From Parvularcula lutaonensis (GTDB lineage Bacteria > Pseudomonadota > Alphaproteobacteria > Caulobacterales > Parvularculaceae): 64,000 nucleotides of DNA. The notes beneath the pieces were generated by a model. It had not been told where the DNA came from and did no database searches. It worked only from the letters and a program-made list of their open reading frames with translations. Position numbers and translations under genes: made by a program. Location of the stretch: contig NZ_BMXU01000001.1 of assembly GCF_014651915.1 (NCBI RefSeq), forward strand, positions 930,001 to 994,000, given 5' to 3'. This document shows, piece after piece, positions 56,171 through 61,975 of the stretch; within the stretch, counting starts at the first letter, position 1; each line of letters starts with the position of its first letter.

Positions 56171-56207
56171 AAAAAGCCGCGCTGGGATTTTCCCGGCGCG
56201 GCTTTTT
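56171..56207. terminator. Bidirectional terminator between fsa and the 34-aa peptides
   Basis: Stem of 12 bp (AAAAAGCCGCGC / GCGCGGCTTTTT) extended by a T-G and three G-C pairs, 5-base loop, with T-runs in both directions. It ends fsa on + and the peptide transcript on -. Confidence 0.9.
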
Positions 56208-56242: not shown

Positions 56243-56347
56243 TCAAACCAGGACCCCTGTCTGGGTAACGGCAGTACCAATGACCACAGCGCTCATGACG
56301 ACGGTGACGAGCGAGACGAGGGTGAGTGCGAAACCTGAGGCTTTCAT
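56243..56347 (-). CDS. 34-residue hydrophobic peptide, copy A
   Basis: A short open frame with AAGGAA 10 bases before its ATG. It encodes M-K-A-S-G followed by one transmembrane-like segment rich in V, T, S, A and G (AAs 6-28, containing TLVSLVTVVMSAVVIG) and a TQTGVLV end. 25 of 34 residues equal copy B 171 bases upstream, with equal length and stop position, and both keep the frame, which argues for a real product. Function unknown: small membrane regulator or toxin-type peptide are possible. Expressed from the promoter of copy B. Confidence 0.72.
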   Translation of the reverse strand: MKASGFALTLVSLVTVVMSAVVIGTAVTQTGVLV

Positions 56348-56413: not shown

Positions 56414-56518
56414 TCAGACCAGGACATTCATTTGCGTGATCGCGGCGCCAATGGTGACGGCGCTCATGACGACGGTGATGAGCGAAACGACGGTAAGTGC
56501 GAGACCCGATGCAGACAT
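56414..56518 (-). CDS. 34-residue hydrophobic peptide, copy B
   Basis: Upstream member of the tandem pair. M-S-A-S-G, then a hydrophobic helix (TVVSLITVVMSAVTIG) and TQMNVLV. An AAGGGA site lies upstream of the ATG (56516-56518). Its leader has a perfect inverted repeat (56539-56555) and, 75 bases before the start, the 40-bp shared element (56594-56633). Differences from copy A are mostly conservative (F/L, L/V, V/I), a pattern of protein-level selection. No cysteine, one or no charged residue. Confidence 0.74.
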   Translation of the reverse strand: MSASGLALTVVSLITVVMSAVTIGAAITQMNVLV

Positions 56519-56593: not shown

Positions 56594-56633
56594 TATCGAC
56601 TCTCGATATTGTCGCTTCTCGATAAATTACAAG
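56594..56633 (-). promoter_or_regulatory. Shared 40-bp promoter/operator element, copy 1
   Basis: Plus-strand text begins TATCGA and ends TTACAAG. It matches the other two copies at 34 (copy 2) of 40 positions. Read on the minus strand it offers a TTGTAA -35-like and a -10-like box, and contains the inverted repeat TATCGA-N3-TCGATA. An extra TCGATAAG / CTTATCGA repeat (56577-56584, 56592-56599) overlaps it. Confidence 0.7.
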
Positions 56634-56692
56634 TGCCGACCCACACTTTTTTCAGCTCGTCAAGAAAAATATTGCAGGTAGGGGAAGGCATG

Positions 56693-56726
56693 AAAAAACC
56701 GCCCGGCTGGGACAAAGCCGGGCGGT
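56693..56726 (-). terminator. Terminator of UrcA-like gene 1
   Basis: 11-bp perfect stem (ACCGCCCGGCT / AGCCGGGCGGT), followed on the minus strand by six T residues. Confidence 0.85.
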
Positions 56727-56859
56727 CAGTCTGGGGAGCGAACCGGAGCAAGGGGCAGTTGCTGCGGCCGTCCCTGAAGCGTAGGACCCCGCCTCCGGTC
56801 CATTGGTGGGGACATCGGGGCAGTCCGGGAGCGGGGCCTACACCTCGAAAAGGTGCAGT

Positions 56860-57174
56860 TTAGCGGGTCGCTTTGAACTCGCTTCGCATATATTTTTTCA
56901 TCGACCGGTCGAGACGTTCGTCTTCGACATTCTCGACAAAGAATTTCATCATACGGACACGACACTTATCGACGATAATGACACCATCCGTCAGCTCACT
57001 GCTGGCAACGCAGAACTCGGTCGCTGCCTCGTCCACTTCGGCCAGAAGCTCGATCCGGCTCTCGGCGGTGGCGAGCTGTTCCTCATCGAGATCGATGTCT
57101 ATCGTCAGGTCGCGGGCCGAGGCCGTGGCGGCCAGTGTCAGGGCACAAGCAGCAGCTGTGAGCATCAGTTTCAT
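56860..57174 (-). CDS. Secreted UrcA-like protein 1
   Basis: 104 residues: signal peptide (MKLMLTAAACALTLAATASA), then an acidic N-terminal strand (RDLTIDIDLDEEQLATAESRIELLAEV), a cysteine in ATEFC and a second in DKCRVRMMKF, with a basic helical tail (MKKYMRSEFKATR). The beta-strand plus C...CR arrangement is that of UrcA-type small periplasmic proteins; the match is weak at the residue level. The two cysteines probably form a disulfide. Copy 2 of the 40-bp element is 90 bases upstream. Confidence 0.75.
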   Translation of the reverse strand: MKLMLTAAACALTLAATASARDLTIDIDLDEEQLATAESRIELLAEVDEAATEFCVASSELTDGVIIVDKCRVRMMKFFVENVEDERLDRSMKKYMRSEFKATR

Positions 57175-57264
57175 TCTCGTCTCCCTCTCCCCCCCTCAGC
57201 GGGGCCTACCGGTCAAGGTGGCGGTGGGCATCCCGCCTCCCCTCAAGCGACACAACTTGCGCTG

Positions 57265-57304
57265 TATCGAAACTCGATATTATCGCTTTTCGATGAGTTA
57301 CAAG
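57265..57304 (-). promoter_or_regulatory. Shared 40-bp promoter/operator element, copy 2
   Basis: 37 of 40 positions equal copy 3. On the minus strand it reads TTGTAA, then about 15 bases, then TAATAT, and carries TATCGA-GTT-TCGATA, a perfect inverted repeat. It lies in the divergent region between UrcA-like 1 (minus) and the CDF gene (plus), so it could influence both. Confidence 0.72.
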
Positions 57305-57423
57305 ACGCCGCCAGCAAAAAAATCGCTCTTTTTGCAGCGCTGCCCGGAAAGTGAGACTGCGCCAGCCTTTCAGCCGCAAAGATAGCTTTTGACGGCGGGG
57401 CCGGAGCGACGCATGTCCCGTTC

Positions 57424-58326
57424 ATGCATGGAAGTCTCGGTACCACGAAAAGCAGGAATGGCTGGGCTGTTGCAGGCACGGTTGCGGCGCTTTGCGTTGC
57501 TGGCCTGCTGATCGCAGCGAAGGCCTATGCCTTCTTTGTCTCAGGATCCGTTGCCGTTCTGGGCAGCCTGGCGGACTCGGCGCTCGATCTCCTGGGTAGC
57601 GCAGCGGCGTTCTTCGCCGTGCGCTACGCCTCGCAGCCGCCGGATGATGACCACCGCTTCGGTCACGAGAAGGCCGAAGCCGTCAGCGCGCTCGCCCAGG
57701 CTTTCCTCATTTCCGCCTCAGCGCTTTTCATCGCCGTGGAGAGCATCAAGCGCCTCGTGCACCCGCAGCCGCTGGAGGATAGCGGGGCTGCGATCGCCGT
57801 TCTCACGTTCGGCGTGGTGGCGACGGTGGGGCTGGTCACGTTCCAGACATTCGCGCTCAGGCGGTCGGGATCTCTGGTCGTCGAGGGAGACCGGGCGCAC
57901 TATCTCGGGGATGTGATCGCCCATTCGGGCGCGCTGGCCGCGGTGTTCCTTTCGGCCCGGTTCGGTTTCTTCAGGGCCGATGCCATCGCGGGACTTGTCG
58001 CTGCGTTTTTCCTTGCCTGGTCCGTGCGCGAGCTGGTCGGCAAGGCCCTGCCCCAGGTCATGGACCAGGAGCTGCCAGACGAGGACCGCGACAGGATCAT
58101 CGCGATCATCGACGAAGAGCCCGAGGCCTACGGCTTCCATAATCTCCGGACACGGAGGTCGGGCAATGTGCGTTTTGTGCAGATGCACCTCGACATGCGG
58201 CCGGACCTGACCCTGCGCGAGGCCCATGAGATTGCCGACAGGGTCGAGAAGAAGATCGAGGCGATCTTTCCCGATACGGACGTGATCGTTCACCAGGACC
58301 CGCTGGAAGCGTGGGAAAAAGAGTAG
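57424..58326 (+). CDS. Cation diffusion facilitator (FieF-like) transporter
   Basis: Exports divalent metal ions (Zn, Fe, Mn or Cd) using the proton gradient. 300 residues, six TM helices. TM2 holds the metal site in SLADSALDLLGSA (D-x3-D), and TM5 HYLGDVIAHSG (H-x3-D). FGHEKAEAVSALAQ is the conserved cytoplasmic loop. The C-terminal domain (ADRVEKKIEAIFPDTDVIVHQDP) binds metal and dimerises. It sits inside the cluster of 40-bp elements; an in-family regulator is not present. Confidence 0.93.
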   Translation: MHGSLGTTKSRNGWAVAGTVAALCVAGLLIAAKAYAFFVSGSVAVLGSLADSALDLLGSAAAFFAVRYASQPPDDDHRFGHEKAEAVSALAQAFLISASALFIAVESIKRLVHPQPLEDSGAAIAVLTFGVVATVGLVTFQTFALRRSGSLVVEGDRAHYLGDVIAHSGALAAVFLSARFGFFRADAIAGLVAAFFLAWSVRELVGKALPQVMDQELPDEDRDRIIAIIDEEPEAYGFHNLRTRRSGNVRFVQMHLDMRPDLTLREAHEIADRVEKKIEAIFPDTDVIVHQDPLEAWEKE

Positions 58327-58327
58327 G

Positions 58328-58358
58328 CTGGAAGCGGGAGGACAAAACCGCTCCCAGC
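58328..58358. terminator. Hairpin between convergent CDF and UrcA-like gene 2
   Basis: 11-bp arms with one mismatch (GCTGGAAGCGG / CCGCTCCCAGC) around a 9-base loop. On the minus strand a T-run follows after six bases, so it can serve the UrcA-like transcript; the + side is weaker. Confidence 0.55.
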
Positions 58359-58387
58359 CCGTGCGCTGGTTGAAGACACCCTGGGGC

Positions 58388-58702
58388 TCAGTGGCCGTGC
58401 TTCATGGCGGCGCGATAACCGTCCCTGTTCATTTCCTGGATGTCCCAATCGCCGAGGTCATCGACCAGGCTATCGACATAGTCCTGGGCGCAGGTCGCAA
58501 CGGAGGACAGGCGCTTGGTCGGGCGAAGGCTGGCGCGGCATTCATCGAGGGCTTCCTCGACAAACATGGCGTAGATCTCGGCGCGGCCTTCATCGGATTT
58601 GAGCAGTTTCTCGTTGAATTCCACTTCGACGTCAGCAGACGCCGTGCCCAGCATGGCGGCGGCACCGGTGATGGCAGCGGCGAACATAGCAACAGTCTTC
58701 AT
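58388..58702 (-). CDS. Secreted UrcA-like protein 2
   Basis: 104 residues, the same length as protein 1. Signal peptide (MKTVAMFAAAITGAAAMLGTASA), then DVEVEFNEKLLKSDEGRAEIYAMFVEEALDEC, RPTKRLSSVATC and an acidic-to-basic helical end (MNRDGYRAAMKHGH). Two cysteines again flank a variable loop. The strand-helix-C-loop-C plan is close to UrcA family proteins. Copy 3 of the 40-bp element is 163 bases upstream. It converges with the CDF gene. Confidence 0.78.
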   Translation of the reverse strand: MKTVAMFAAAITGAAAMLGTASADVEVEFNEKLLKSDEGRAEIYAMFVEEALDECRASLRPTKRLSSVATCAQDYVDSLVDDLGDWDIQEMNRDGYRAAMKHGH

Positions 58703-59107
58703 GATGGTCTCCTCTCCTCGACCTCGTTCCTCCGGGCGCAGGCCAGCCTGCGGGGTTCCGGCGCGAGCCGGGTGTTGCCTCCTGAGACTGCCTCAGGACC
58801 CGTCGGACACACTCGTGATGTATGCGGAGGGAAATTCCTCCGCGGTTGCCGATACGGTTCGTTCGTATCGAAATACGATATTATCGCTTTTCGATGATTT
58901 ACAAGATTGCGTGCTGAGAAAAGTTCAGTACGGATATTACGGCACTGATAGTTTCAAGCGAAACCAGGTGCTGGTGAATCAAGACTTAACAGGCAAAGGG
59001 GCAGAAGGCGAAGGAGCAGCACAGGCAGGATCGCCATTCGATCGCGATACGGATGAAAGCGGCTGGAGCCGCGCACGCTGGAGGGCGTCCCGGCTTTCGG
59101 GACCGCC
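58703..59107. other. Upstream region of UrcA-like gene 2 and 3' end of the RM gene
   Basis: 405 bases without a gene. Contains the 40-bp element at 58866-58905. The bases beyond it up to 59107 hold a partial hairpin (GGGCGTCCCG / CGGGACCGCCC) without T-run that may close the restriction-modification transcript. Confidence 0.55.
58866..58905 (-). promoter_or_regulatory. Shared 40-bp promoter/operator element, copy 3
   Basis: Same outer ends (TATCGA, TTACAAG) and inner blocks (CGATATT, TCGCTT, TCGAT) as the other copies. It differs from copy 2 at three positions. The inverted repeat here is TATCG-N5-CGATA. Its distance from the UrcA-like start is longer (163 bases). Confidence 0.7.
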
Positions 59108-60214
59108 CTACTGGTTTGCGGCGCGTTGCTGGTTGAGGTCGAAGAGGCGTTTGAGGATGTCCTCCTCGTCCATCCCGGCCTCCCAGTCGTCCTCCCAGCC
59201 ATAGGCGGCGGCGACGGCGCGGTCGAGTTCGGCGTGGGCGTGGTCCAGCCAAGCCGGGCGTTCGTTGTAGAGATTGGTCAGTGTGCGTTTCTTGAGGATC
59301 TTCGCCGCTTCCTCGTCCCTGGGCAGGATGCGGTCGGGATAGCCCTCCACGACCTCAGGCTCGCGGATGACGAGGTCCTCCGGGTTCAGCCAGTTCTCGC
59401 GCAGGGTGTTCAGCCTCTCAGCGGCCTCGGCAATGCGGATGGCGCGGGGGTCATCGGCGTAGTCTTCGGCGGGGATGTCGGGGGTGAGGCCTTCTGGGAA
59501 GGGGAAGGTTTCGAACGAGTTCGTTGGCGTGTACTGAGGGTCATTCCCTTTGCCGTGCCAGCCTCCCGTAGCAAGCGACCAGACTTCGTGAATGCGCCCC
59601 TGTAGGAGCACGAAGCTTGTGTCATCGTCCCGAGCAATCACGACTAGCCGTCCATCGGGAACCACCGAAACGTCCAGCCATTTGAAGAGCCGCCACTTAG
59701 CTACACGTGGGGTCGCGAGGTACCTAGCCCTTCCAGTCAGTGCGCGACGCATAGCAGGCCGCGCCTCTCCAAATATCCACCATCGTTCGCGATGATTTCG
59801 TCGCCGCACCTTGGCCCGAGCGGGCTTCACCTTGTGCAACAGGTGCTCAAAAGGAGCTTCGAACATCGCTGCATCCGCTTCAGAAGCGTCAGTGCCGAAG
59901 TCGATTATCCACTTTTCACTACTGCGGCCAGTTACATCCTGACCGTTAGCCCAAGGACGGACGACGCGTTCGTTTCGTTCGCCGTTCGGGTTCGTCGGCG
60001 CATTTATGAGCCGGACAGCCAGTTCACGCTCGATGTCAAAGTCGCCAACCTTTATAGTTCCTTGGAATGAGGCCTTAGCATTCTCACCAAGACGTGCAGC
60101 CCTTGAAAAATCAACGCCACTGGTACGCGCCGACAGATCTGCGTTGATGGTGGGGACTTCGCTGCCATCGAGATAACGTTTGCCACCGCGATCGCCCAAG
60201 AAGACAATTGACAC
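59108..60214 (-). CDS. C-terminal fragment of the MmeI-like enzyme (target recognition)
   Basis: 368 codons from a GTG that could reinitiate after the amber codon. Contains the family block FQGTIKVGDFDIERELAVRLINAPTNPNG, VVRPWANGQDVT, DFGTDASEADAAMFEAPFEH, PPRVAKWRLFKW-type strands and the C-terminal YADDPRAIRIAEAAERLNTLRENWL. It has no catalytic motif of its own. It is unlikely to be an independent gene: the frame continues unbroken from the upstream part. Confidence 0.7.
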   Translation of the reverse strand: MSIVFLGDRGGKRYLDGSEVPTINADLSARTSGVDFSRAARLGENAKASFQGTIKVGDFDIERELAVRLINAPTNPNGERNERVVRPWANGQDVTGRSSEKWIIDFGTDASEADAAMFEAPFEHLLHKVKPARAKVRRRNHRERWWIFGEARPAMRRALTGRARYLATPRVAKWRLFKWLDVSVVPDGRLVVIARDDDTSFVLLQGRIHEVWSLATGGWHGKGNDPQYTPTNSFETFPFPEGLTPDIPAEDYADDPRAIRIAEAAERLNTLRENWLNPEDLVIREPEVVEGYPDRILPRDEEAAKILKKRTLTNLYNERPAWLDHAHAELDRAVAAAYGWEDDWEAGMDEEDILKRLFDLNQQRAANQ

Positions 60215-60244: not shown

Positions 60245-61975
60245 CTAATCTGAGTACGCGCGAAAAATCTGCTGATTGTCGGCGGCGGCTTGTAGAACCG
60301 ATCTGTTATTCTGCCCCCGGATGGAATTAGTTGTTACAAGACCAGAATACTTAACTTCTGAATTCCGGATCAGCTTCCAAGTTCGAAGAACCCAGAACAT
60401 AACGAAATCCGCGGTTTTCGGGAGTTCGCGATACGCTCCCCGGACGTCCAGAACATATTGCTCCCCCAATTCACCGATCATCCGCTTGTTCCCCAAAAAC
60501 GGCGGGTTCCCCACGATCACGTCGGCTTCGGGCCATTCCGCTTCGCGCCATTCGCCAGTCTCTTCGTCCTGCTCGATCAGGGCGTCGCGGTTTTCGATGT
60601 TGTTCAGGGGGCGGAGAATGGGTGTCGAGGTGCCGAAGCCTTTCTTCTGCATCCACTGGATATCGCCGATCCAGACCGAGACGCGGGCGAGTTCGGCGGC
60701 GTAGGGATTGATCTCTATGCCGAGGACATTCTCCGGCCCGACCCGCGGCAAGCCGCGCGGGAGGCCCAGATCCTCGGCCTCTGAATTCGCGCGCTGCTCG
60801 ATGTCCTTGAGGGCCTTGAGCGAAAGGTAGAGGAAGTTGCCGGAGCCGCAGGCAGGGTCGAGGACGCGGAACCCCGCGAGCTTTTCGATGAAGTCCGCAT
60901 GCAGCTTTTTCGCCCTGTTCATCGCACGGGTGCGGGTTGCGCCCTTGCCCTTCGCGGCCTTGGCCAGCTCTGCCTCGATCTTGCCTCGCACCTCCTCCCA
61001 CTCTGCCGTGAGGGGCTCGATGATGACGGGCTCGACGATCATCATGATCTTCTCGGCGTCGGTGTAGTGGGCGCCGAGCTGGCTGCGCTTGGAGGGGTCG
61101 AGGCCGCGTTCGAACAGCGTGCCGAAGATCGAGGGGTCGATCTCCGACCAGTCGAGCTTGGCCGCGTGGACGAGGAGCTTCACATCCTCCTTCTCCAGCG
61201 GCAGGGCCGTGTCGTCGTCGAACAGGCCGCCGTTGAAGTGCGGAACGGCTACAAAGCCGACGCGGCCACCAAGGCTCATCGCGCGGAAGAGATCGGAGAG
61301 GTTCTGCTGCGCCTCCGCCGGGTTCTTCACCGCCAGCTCCATCGAGCGCTGGAAGAGCTTGTTGGGCAGGAGGTTCACGTCCTCCGCGAACATGCAGAAG
61401 ACCAGCCTGTTGACGAAATGCGCGACGGTGTGGGGATCGTGCCCCCTCTCCCGCAGGCGCTGGGCCAGGCCCGAGAAGTCGTTCGCCGCATCGCGGGTCA
61501 GCTCGTCCCGGCTGCGCTTGGGCCTGAGGGCCGAGGGGTTCTCGAAGACGTTTTTGAGAAACTCGCGCTTCTTCGCGTCGAGAAGATCGTCGAGAGCGAT
61601 CTCGTGGACCTCGGTGACGTAGTTGGTCCAGTCGGTGTAGACGCGGATCGTCTTGGTGTCCGAGACGATGAGGAGCGGCGGGTTGCCGAGCGCGCCCTTG
61701 TAACGCTGGAGCTGGCGGTAGGCGGCGTCGAGGTCCTTGCCGGGACCCTTGTACTCCCACGCGAAGTGGCCCTTCTTCCAGACATCCGCGAAACCGATGC
61801 GGCCGTCATCCTTCGCGGTCTGCTTTTCGAAGGTGTATGTGTCGCCCTTGGTGTCGTCGTCGAGGGGCTTCGTAACACCGAGAAGATCGCAGAGGTCGTT
61901 GAAGTGGCTGTGCGCGGCCTGGCGCTCGCCAAGCTCCATGTCCCGCCATTTCTTCACGAAGTCAGTCGGTTGCAT
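60245..61975 (-). CDS. N-terminal fragment of the MmeI-like enzyme (nuclease plus methyltransferase)
   Basis: 576 residues up to the TAG. Contains the ExK nuclease and complete methyltransferase motifs (DPACGSGNF; NPPF) but no target-recognition domain, so alone it should be inactive or non-specific. The last 80 codons switch to codons rare elsewhere in the window (AGA, CTA, GTA, ACA, AAT). Confidence 0.75.
   Translation of the reverse strand: MQPTDFVKKWRDMELGERQAAHSHFNDLCDLLGVTKPLDDDTKGDTYTFEKQTAKDDGRIGFADVWKKGHFAWEYKGPGKDLDAAYRQLQRYKGALGNPPLLIVSDTKTIRVYTDWTNYVTEVHEIALDDLLDAKKREFLKNVFENPSALRPKRSRDELTRDAANDFSGLAQRLRERGHDPHTVAHFVNRLVFCMFAEDVNLLPNKLFQRSMELAVKNPAEAQQNLSDLFRAMSLGGRVGFVAVPHFNGGLFDDDTALPLEKEDVKLLVHAAKLDWSEIDPSIFGTLFERGLDPSKRSQLGAHYTDAEKIMMIVEPVIIEPLTAEWEEVRGKIEAELAKAAKGKGATRTRAMNRAKKLHADFIEKLAGFRVLDPACGSGNFLYLSLKALKDIEQRANSEAEDLGLPRGLPRVGPENVLGIEINPYAAELARVSVWIGDIQWMQKKGFGTSTPILRPLNNIENRDALIEQDEETGEWREAEWPEADVIVGNPPFLGNKRMIGELGEQYVLDVRGAYRELPKTADFVMFWVLRTWKLIRNSEVKYSGLVTTNSIRGQNNRSVLQAAADNQQIFRAYSD

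Follow-up and report, generated by a model that had tools for sequence, protein, structure and literature searches.

Tandem palindromic elements before UrcA-like and membrane-peptide genes of Parvularcula lutaonensis are predicted operators of a YozG-like regulator

Small regulators of the Cro/C1 type that act at tandem operators over their own promoter are familiar as the controller (C) proteins of restriction-modification systems. A 2025 paper, in the part cited here, places the YozG-like regulators on a branch separate from the C proteins and describes the YozG group as barely characterised (PMC12376442). In the portions of other sources cited here, yozG is listed in an expression table of Bacillus subtilis (PMC4326333), a toxin-antitoxin survey recorded 32 pairs of an Xre protein with a YoaS-like membrane protein and put them aside (PMC2701414), a Streptomyces cluster contains a DUF2975 gene beside a helix-turn-helix (HTH) gene (PMC7827011), and a review describes Caulobacter urcA as being controlled by UzcRS (PMC8963506). 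Our literature search on DUF2975, YoaS, YozG, COG3655, HTH_26 and PF13443, whose reach mostly excluded subscription papers, found no operator study. Here we analyse a 64,000-bp stretch of the Parvularcula lutaonensis genome (contig NZ_BMXU01000001.1, positions 930,001 to 994,000; hereafter the window), in which three 40-bp elements, designated A, B and C, lie before genes for UrcA-like proteins and short hydrophobic peptides. Each element is likely to be a promoter carrying a double operator for the one YozG-like HTH_26 protein found in this genome, probably a repressor, and we conclude from the comparisons below that, in one clade, such operators appear to have been taken up by UrcA-like genes and perhaps by a gene for a CDF exporter.

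The initial annotation had described three near-identical copies in a common orientation, each containing TATCG-N5-CGATA, and the sequence bears this out: 32 of the 40 columns are identical, every copy lies on the minus strand facing a minus-strand gene, and the palindrome is present in all three. Each element holds two tandem palindromes of the form ATCG-N5-CGAT at a 16-bp step, over a conserved promoter-like pair TTGTA/TATCG. Of the promoter hexamers proposed earlier, TTGTAA is kept but TAATAT is not favoured, and a generic sigma-70 scan calls nothing at the elements; the second hexamer is more likely TATCG(A/T), 18 bp after TTGTAA, because TTGTA-N19-TATCG is the part kept between species. 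Genome-wide statements rest on pattern searches of the 2,954,603 bases of this genome (G000). A 40-column weight matrix gave 64-69 bits for the three copies and less than 7 for all other places, with scores of 31, 24 and 12 representing opposite-strand readings of the same copies, since the element is nearly palindromic. A scan with 24 fixed positions and up to three mismatches returned the three elements only (reversed-pattern control, 0); the random dispersal, including inside genes, that would mark a repeat rather than an operator is not seen in this genome. A looser tandem pattern added two places with three mismatches each. The single palindrome TATCG-N5-CGATA occurs at seven places (reversed control, 1): three are the elements, two lie in a phage-like region, and the remaining two are taken for chance. 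The two sites in the phage-like region (L217 and L218; G000:C2:822452 and 822725) are exact palindromes with an identical N5 (TATCGTTATTCGATA), separated by 273 bp in what seems to be non-coding DNA flanked by a T7-type terminase piece and a ThyX-like open reading frame (ORF), and this region may carry the host operator.

We scanned a genome collection representing 84,980 species with the pattern ATCGANNNNCRAYAATATCGNNNNNCGAT, which yielded 37 stretches, two of them from Parvularcula, where about two chance matches are expected by our own uniform-base estimate. In 29 of the 35 non-Parvularcula stretches the site has a gene for a YozG-like Cro/C1 regulator no more than about 1.5 kb away, at 1.3-1.5 kb in L093, L094, L096 and L097; all 29 proteins belong to one subfamily (phmmer E 5.5e-21 or better). 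The regulator was found in none of 30 UrcA loci and none of 19 CDF loci used as controls, which are shorter (166 kb in all, as against 272 kb). Pfam analysis of two of these regulators assigned both to HTH_26. The hosts span several phyla and include many actinobacteria, two Bryobacterales, a Novosphingobium, an Acidomonas and a Pseudomonadales genome. Six stretches lack the regulator (L069, L072, L082, L084, L086 and L095): L086 and L095 end 0.3 and 0.7 kb downstream of the site, with L095 retaining a membrane-protein ORF, and the sites of L072, L082 and L084 fall inside ORFs of the automatic list, as do those of some regulator-positive loci. The site in L069 precedes an ORF that we take to be HigB-like. 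Of the 29 loci, 28 have a gene for a membrane protein between the site and the regulator gene, and these partners, of 176-257 aa plus one listed at 418 aa (probably a wrong automatic start), all belong to one family (leave-one-out profiles, E 1.4e-8 or better). When five were searched against Pfam, two passed the DUF2975 cut-off (L068 and L066), L076 fell short of it (22.8 bits, cut-off 27), and L097 and L065 had no hit. The 28 partners (among L063-L099) end in a similar short C-terminal tail, often after acidic residues (for example EGTV, EGLV, SLTI or DLTV), which is a candidate contact for the regulator. The automatic start codon lies 11-30 nt from the site in 19 of the 28 foreign loci. A further unit, not demanded by the scan pattern, occurs with one mismatch allowed in 13 of the 29 loci, at most 60 bp ahead of the pair or 40 bp behind it; it extends the 16-bp step in 10 of these 13, but the ten are not independent, as seven of them come, judging by name, from Nonomuraea, Microtetraspora or close relatives.

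The association was also examined in the reverse direction, using 49 regulator loci of the family fetched by protein rather than by motif, with the three element-bearing species left out. Upstream regions of up to 1.6 kb contained an exact ATCG-N5-CGAT in 27 of the 49 loci (100 shuffles: mean 2.8, maximum 8). When each unit was permitted one mismatch, 35 pairs of units lay 13-60 bp apart, compared with 2.4 in shuffles, with a concentration at two distances: 16 pairs at 26 bp and four at 21 bp (0.08 and 0.05, respectively, in shuffles), six at 47 bp and three at 42 bp, which equal 21+26 and 21+21, and six at other distances. As a specificity control, 18 loci of paralogues with a different recognition region (for example TEANLSKLKSGNMKGVKF, as compared with TIANLSILKTGKAKAVRF in the regulator subfamily) gave no exact site where 1.1 were expected, hence no enrichment. 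Unlike this upstream test, a raw-count ranking of all four-base dyads used whole loci; across 30 regulator loci it was uninformative, with G+C-rich dyads dominating and ATCG-N5-CGAT at rank 89, and the same 30 loci hold 16 exact units versus 4.3 in shuffles (maximum 10).

A profile built from 13 regulators has a single match in the P. lutaonensis genome at E <= 1e-6 (G000:C1:222501-222695, E 1.9e-33), corresponding to a 68-aa protein that has the matching recognition region, scores 92 bits with Pfam HTH_26 and has as its best match in the PDB 3tyr (E 5.7e-8), which gave no functional information. At least one such regulator is present in nine of the ten Parvularcula genomes. We predict that the elements are sites of this 68-aa protein because its close relatives are encoded beside a like switch in unrelated bacteria. 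The label YozG-like follows PMC12376442, and the naming after B. subtilis YoaS and YozG is presumed from family labels.

Conservation within the family was assessed in 62 genomes, 10 of Parvularcula and 52 others. With up to three mismatches, the element is confined to three Parvularcula genomes (G000, G004 and G005) and absent from the 52 others; the scan of the 84,980-species collection returned it in records of P. maris and P. mediterranea. A stricter tandem pattern found these three species plus one place in G049. G004 and G005 share the neighbours of the window, namely the CDF exporter, UrcA-like gene(s), a short peptide and an aldolase gene, and in the interval separating the urcA-like gene from the CDF gene no long block apart from the element is kept in all three genomes, similarity being restricted to the element plus a few adjoining bases. 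The pattern TTGTA-N19-TATCG-N5-CRA occurs at nine places in five of the ten Parvularcula genomes (reversed pattern 2, both in G000); diverged copies of the promoter stretch differ by one change in G002 and by two in G003. The promoter pair and the right palindrome stay put while the left palindrome shifts, beginning nine bases into the promoter stretch in the window clade (16-bp spacing) and four bases in for G002, G006 and G008, whose units carry one or two mismatches and are spaced at 21 bp. The copy before the G005 peptide lacks the left palindrome. The view of the initial annotation that one regulator serves a small local regulon thus gains comparative support from the lack of dispersed copies, from the occurrence of the motif across phyla beside one regulator subfamily and from an element kept between species at a fixed distance to the promoter-like pair. 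Elsewhere in the order, similar tandem palindromes stand in other settings that lack this regulator nearby (L100-L108), for example, with genes named by eye, ahead of a methyltransferase-like gene or flanked by a hisG-like and an argD-like gene.

The peptides of the window have counterparts in the family. In 22 loci (within L112-L141) a hydrophobic partner ORF ends next to the regulator; by our count, 18 of these show upstream an ORF of 42-45 aa that contains a single hydrophobic stretch, and 11 have an additional second short ORF of 47-55 aa. This second ORF (L122, L125, L127, L128, L132, L133 and L137-L141), situated after the membrane peptide and before the DUF2975-type gene, has a signal-like N-terminus and at least one cysteine towards the C-terminal end. 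DUF2975 was detected in 51 of the 52 non-Parvularcula genomes at E <= 0.001, 49 of them over the cut-off, and a search with the same profile detected it in none of the ten Parvularcula genomes. Four of the latter (G002, G003, G006 and G008) encode a 37-41-aa membrane peptide directly before the regulator and behind a promoter stretch that aligns gap-free with the window elements. The G004 peptide, positioned like the window peptides, resembles the peptides of other genera (none of 500 shuffles scores as high). It is conceivable, although on balance we consider it doubtful, that the peptides replaced a lost DUF2975 protein, holding or releasing a YozG-like repressor at the membrane and reporting envelope or metal stress, and that the circuit then spread. 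If so, a multi-span sensor would have given way to a single-span peptide of 34-41 aa, and the circuit would have spread by copying of its promoter/operator to UrcA-like and metal-export genes.

Several observations weigh against assigning the elements to the YozG-like protein or limit how far the assignment extends. The generic sigma-70 scan of the region called one promoter-like site (shuffles, 0.9) and none at the elements. Among the 49 regulator loci, 22 have no exact site, and the loci are not independent, being drawn from one family. The regulator gene of P. lutaonensis is preceded by a one-mismatch unit only and that of G004 by none, and autoregulation in these two genomes is therefore doubtful. 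Three further UrcA loci of P. lutaonensis have no exact ATCG-N5-CGAT unit, and the motif is not in excess in 30 UrcA loci of the family (two seen, 4.9 in shuffles), so control of UrcA genes would be clade-specific at most. A looser pattern applied to 299 genomes of the order gave nine non-Parvularcula matches, none with the regulator within about 1.5 kb, which for this reason are either chance or remote targets. Finally, the likeness of the window peptides to those of other genera is not significant (equally high scores in 137 and 266 of 500 shuffles) and their likeness to other Parvularcula peptides is weak (20 and 2 of 500); because their own similarity is weak, the peptide link rests on position and on the G004 intermediate.

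The observed basis of the operator assignment consists of the sequences themselves, their conservation, the co-location of site and regulator gene and the paralogue control. On this basis, the hexamer pair TTGTAA/TATCG(A/T) carries two ATCG-N5-CGAT palindromes, each of a size suited to a dimer of a small Cro/C1-type protein, the right unit covering the second hexamer and, in the window clade, the left unit lying between the hexamers. Dimers placed 16, 21 or 26 bp apart would be separated by approximately 1.5, 2 or 2.5 turns (at 10.5 bp per turn), a spacing that would fit cooperative binding on opposite or equal faces of the DNA. Repression is the most likely outcome because here the promoter is overlapped by the sites, which in other genomes are found near the start codon, and from the 11-30 nt interval the site should overlap the transcription start. 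In the foreign loci the order is predicted operator, DUF2975-type membrane protein (28 of 29) and then the regulator downstream; in the window clade the regulator gene is separate from the peptide, and copies of the predicted promoter/operator stand before two peptide and two UrcA-like genes. Binding, cooperative binding of two dimers, repression, autoregulation and release by an envelope signal, for example metal stress, would complete the proposed circuit. The UrcA and CDF family names, with the passage on urcA in PMC8963506, suggest metal or envelope stress as the signal.

The direction of control by the YozG-like protein is not given by sequence. The hexamers are poor sigma-70 matches that escape the scan, as would fit a promoter in need of help, but a right unit over the second hexamer, a left unit between the hexamers in the window clade, and the short distance to the start codon in the foreign loci, where the site should overlap the transcription start, all speak for repression; activation, alone or combined with repression, is accordingly unlikely, and it shares the operator assignment with the preferred reading, so the odds of the two overlap. 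A toxin-antitoxin module of the tandem 34-aa peptides and the XRE regulator, the latter being both antitoxin and repressor, is likewise compatible with that assignment. Small hydrophobic tandem peptides would suit such a module, and pairs of Xre with a membrane partner did surface in the survey, yet in the part cited the survey set aside Xre and membrane-protein pairs, including YoaS-like ones (PMC2701414). The peptides and the regulator of P. lutaonensis are moreover 0.76 Mb apart, for which reason a regulon fits better than an addiction module, and we regard the latter as quite improbable.

The remaining alternatives dispense with the YozG-like protein. UrcA-like genes and a CDF exporter adjoin the element, and the control of Caulobacter urcA by UzcRS (PMC8963506, as cited above) would favour a site for a UzcR-like metal-responsive two-component regulator. 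The half-sites CATTAC-N6-TTAA given in the cited part of that review are absent from the element when compared by eye, and across genomes the motif is accompanied by an XRE-type protein; a UzcR site is rejected on motif, and the explanation as a whole is very improbable. That a mobile repeat came by chance to lie before three genes is more improbable still: three near-identical copies inside 2.3 kb might be expected of a repeat, but the genome is without further copies, the place between the corresponding genes is identical in G004 and G005, and the shared similarity is limited to the element and a few bases.

The features of the region are collected in Table 1. The products named in the initial annotation, two 34-aa hydrophobic peptides, two UrcA-like proteins and an adjoining CDF-superfamily exporter, were recovered. 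Both UrcA-like proteins exceed the curated TIGR04433 cut-off by a small margin, and a Pfam search of the two gave no match. For the exporter, FieF models score best yet remain under their cut-offs; its gene, divergent from element B, is a possible target of that element. Eight terminator-like sites were found in the region, compared with 2.7 in shuffles. No regulator was seen by eye beside the elements in the ORF list for 54-64 kb, and family searches covered six window proteins; the regulator gene of this genome lies about 0.76 Mb away. Further along, two adjacent minus-strand ORFs (59108-60214 and 60245-61975) encode domains of MmeI-type restriction-modification enzymes, the N-terminal, helicase-spacer and methylase parts exceeding their cut-offs in one ORF and the target-recognition and C-terminal parts falling below theirs in the other, which looks like a single MmeI-type gene split in two.

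Table 1. Elements, genes and signals of the region, with the regulator gene of the same genome
Feature	Coordinates	Strand	Remarks
Element A	56594..56633	-	tandem ATCG-N5-CGAT units, left unit with one mismatch; before two 34-aa peptide ORFs
Element A hexamers	TTGTAA 56632-56627 / TATCGA 56608-56603	-	
Element B	57265..57304	-	both tandem units perfect (within 57281-57295 and 57265-57279); flanked by urcA-like 56860-57174 (-) and CDF gene 57424-58326 (+)
Element C	58866..58905	-	two perfect tandem units; before urcA-like 58388-58702
Peptide 1, 34 aa, hydrophobic	56414..56518	-	probably single-span membrane
Peptide 2, 34 aa, hydrophobic	56243..56347	-	tandem duplicate of peptide 1 by eye
UrcA-like protein, 104 aa	56860..57174	-	signal-like N-terminus (by eye); TIGR04433 27.3 bits, cut-off 25
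UrcA-like protein, 104 aa	58388..58702	-	signal-like N-terminus (by eye); TIGR04433 26.8 bits, cut-off 25
CDF-superfamily cation exporter	57424..58326	+	divergent from element B; TIGR01297 199.6 bits, cut-off 82.35
Terminator-like hairpin and T tract	56697..56727	-	between urcA-like 56860-57174 and element A
17-pair hairpin and T tract	56171..56207	listed on +, T run on minus strand	after two peptide ORFs
YozG-like HTH_26 regulator, 68 aa	G000:C1:222489-222695	-	outside window, ~0.76 Mb from elements

What emerges is a Cro/C1-type operator system whose site is newly predicted and whose regulon seems rewired. YozG-like regulators would gain a predicted operator, tandem ATCG-N5-CGAT with a start-to-start distance of 16, 21 or 26 bp, that is testable in any host carrying the regulator and DUF2975-type pair. 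The Parvularcula loci offer a case in which the target set of a regulator seems to have been rewired, and would connect unannotated membrane peptides, as well as UrcA-like proteins whose function is unknown, with a single regulator.

In comparison with described systems, the proposed circuit resembles that of the C proteins in its small Cro/C1-type regulator and tandem operators, and a restriction-modification-type gene is the next gene in the window; unlike in a C-protein system, the element stands before a urcA-like gene rather than that gene, and in G004 and G005 it is kept with CDF and UrcA genes next to it. With the UzcRS/urcA system of Caulobacter it has in common UrcA-family products near a metal-transport gene, whereas binding motif and regulator type differ. 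The YoaS-YozG pair of a DUF2975 membrane protein and an XRE regulator differs in that Parvularcula has no detected DUF2975 (0 of 10 genomes), the regulator gene of P. lutaonensis is unlinked and UrcA-like genes carry the operator, but it shares the HTH_26 regulator type, with N-L-S-x-L-K in the recognition region, and, by the present scan, the same tandem ATCG-N5-CGAT operator.

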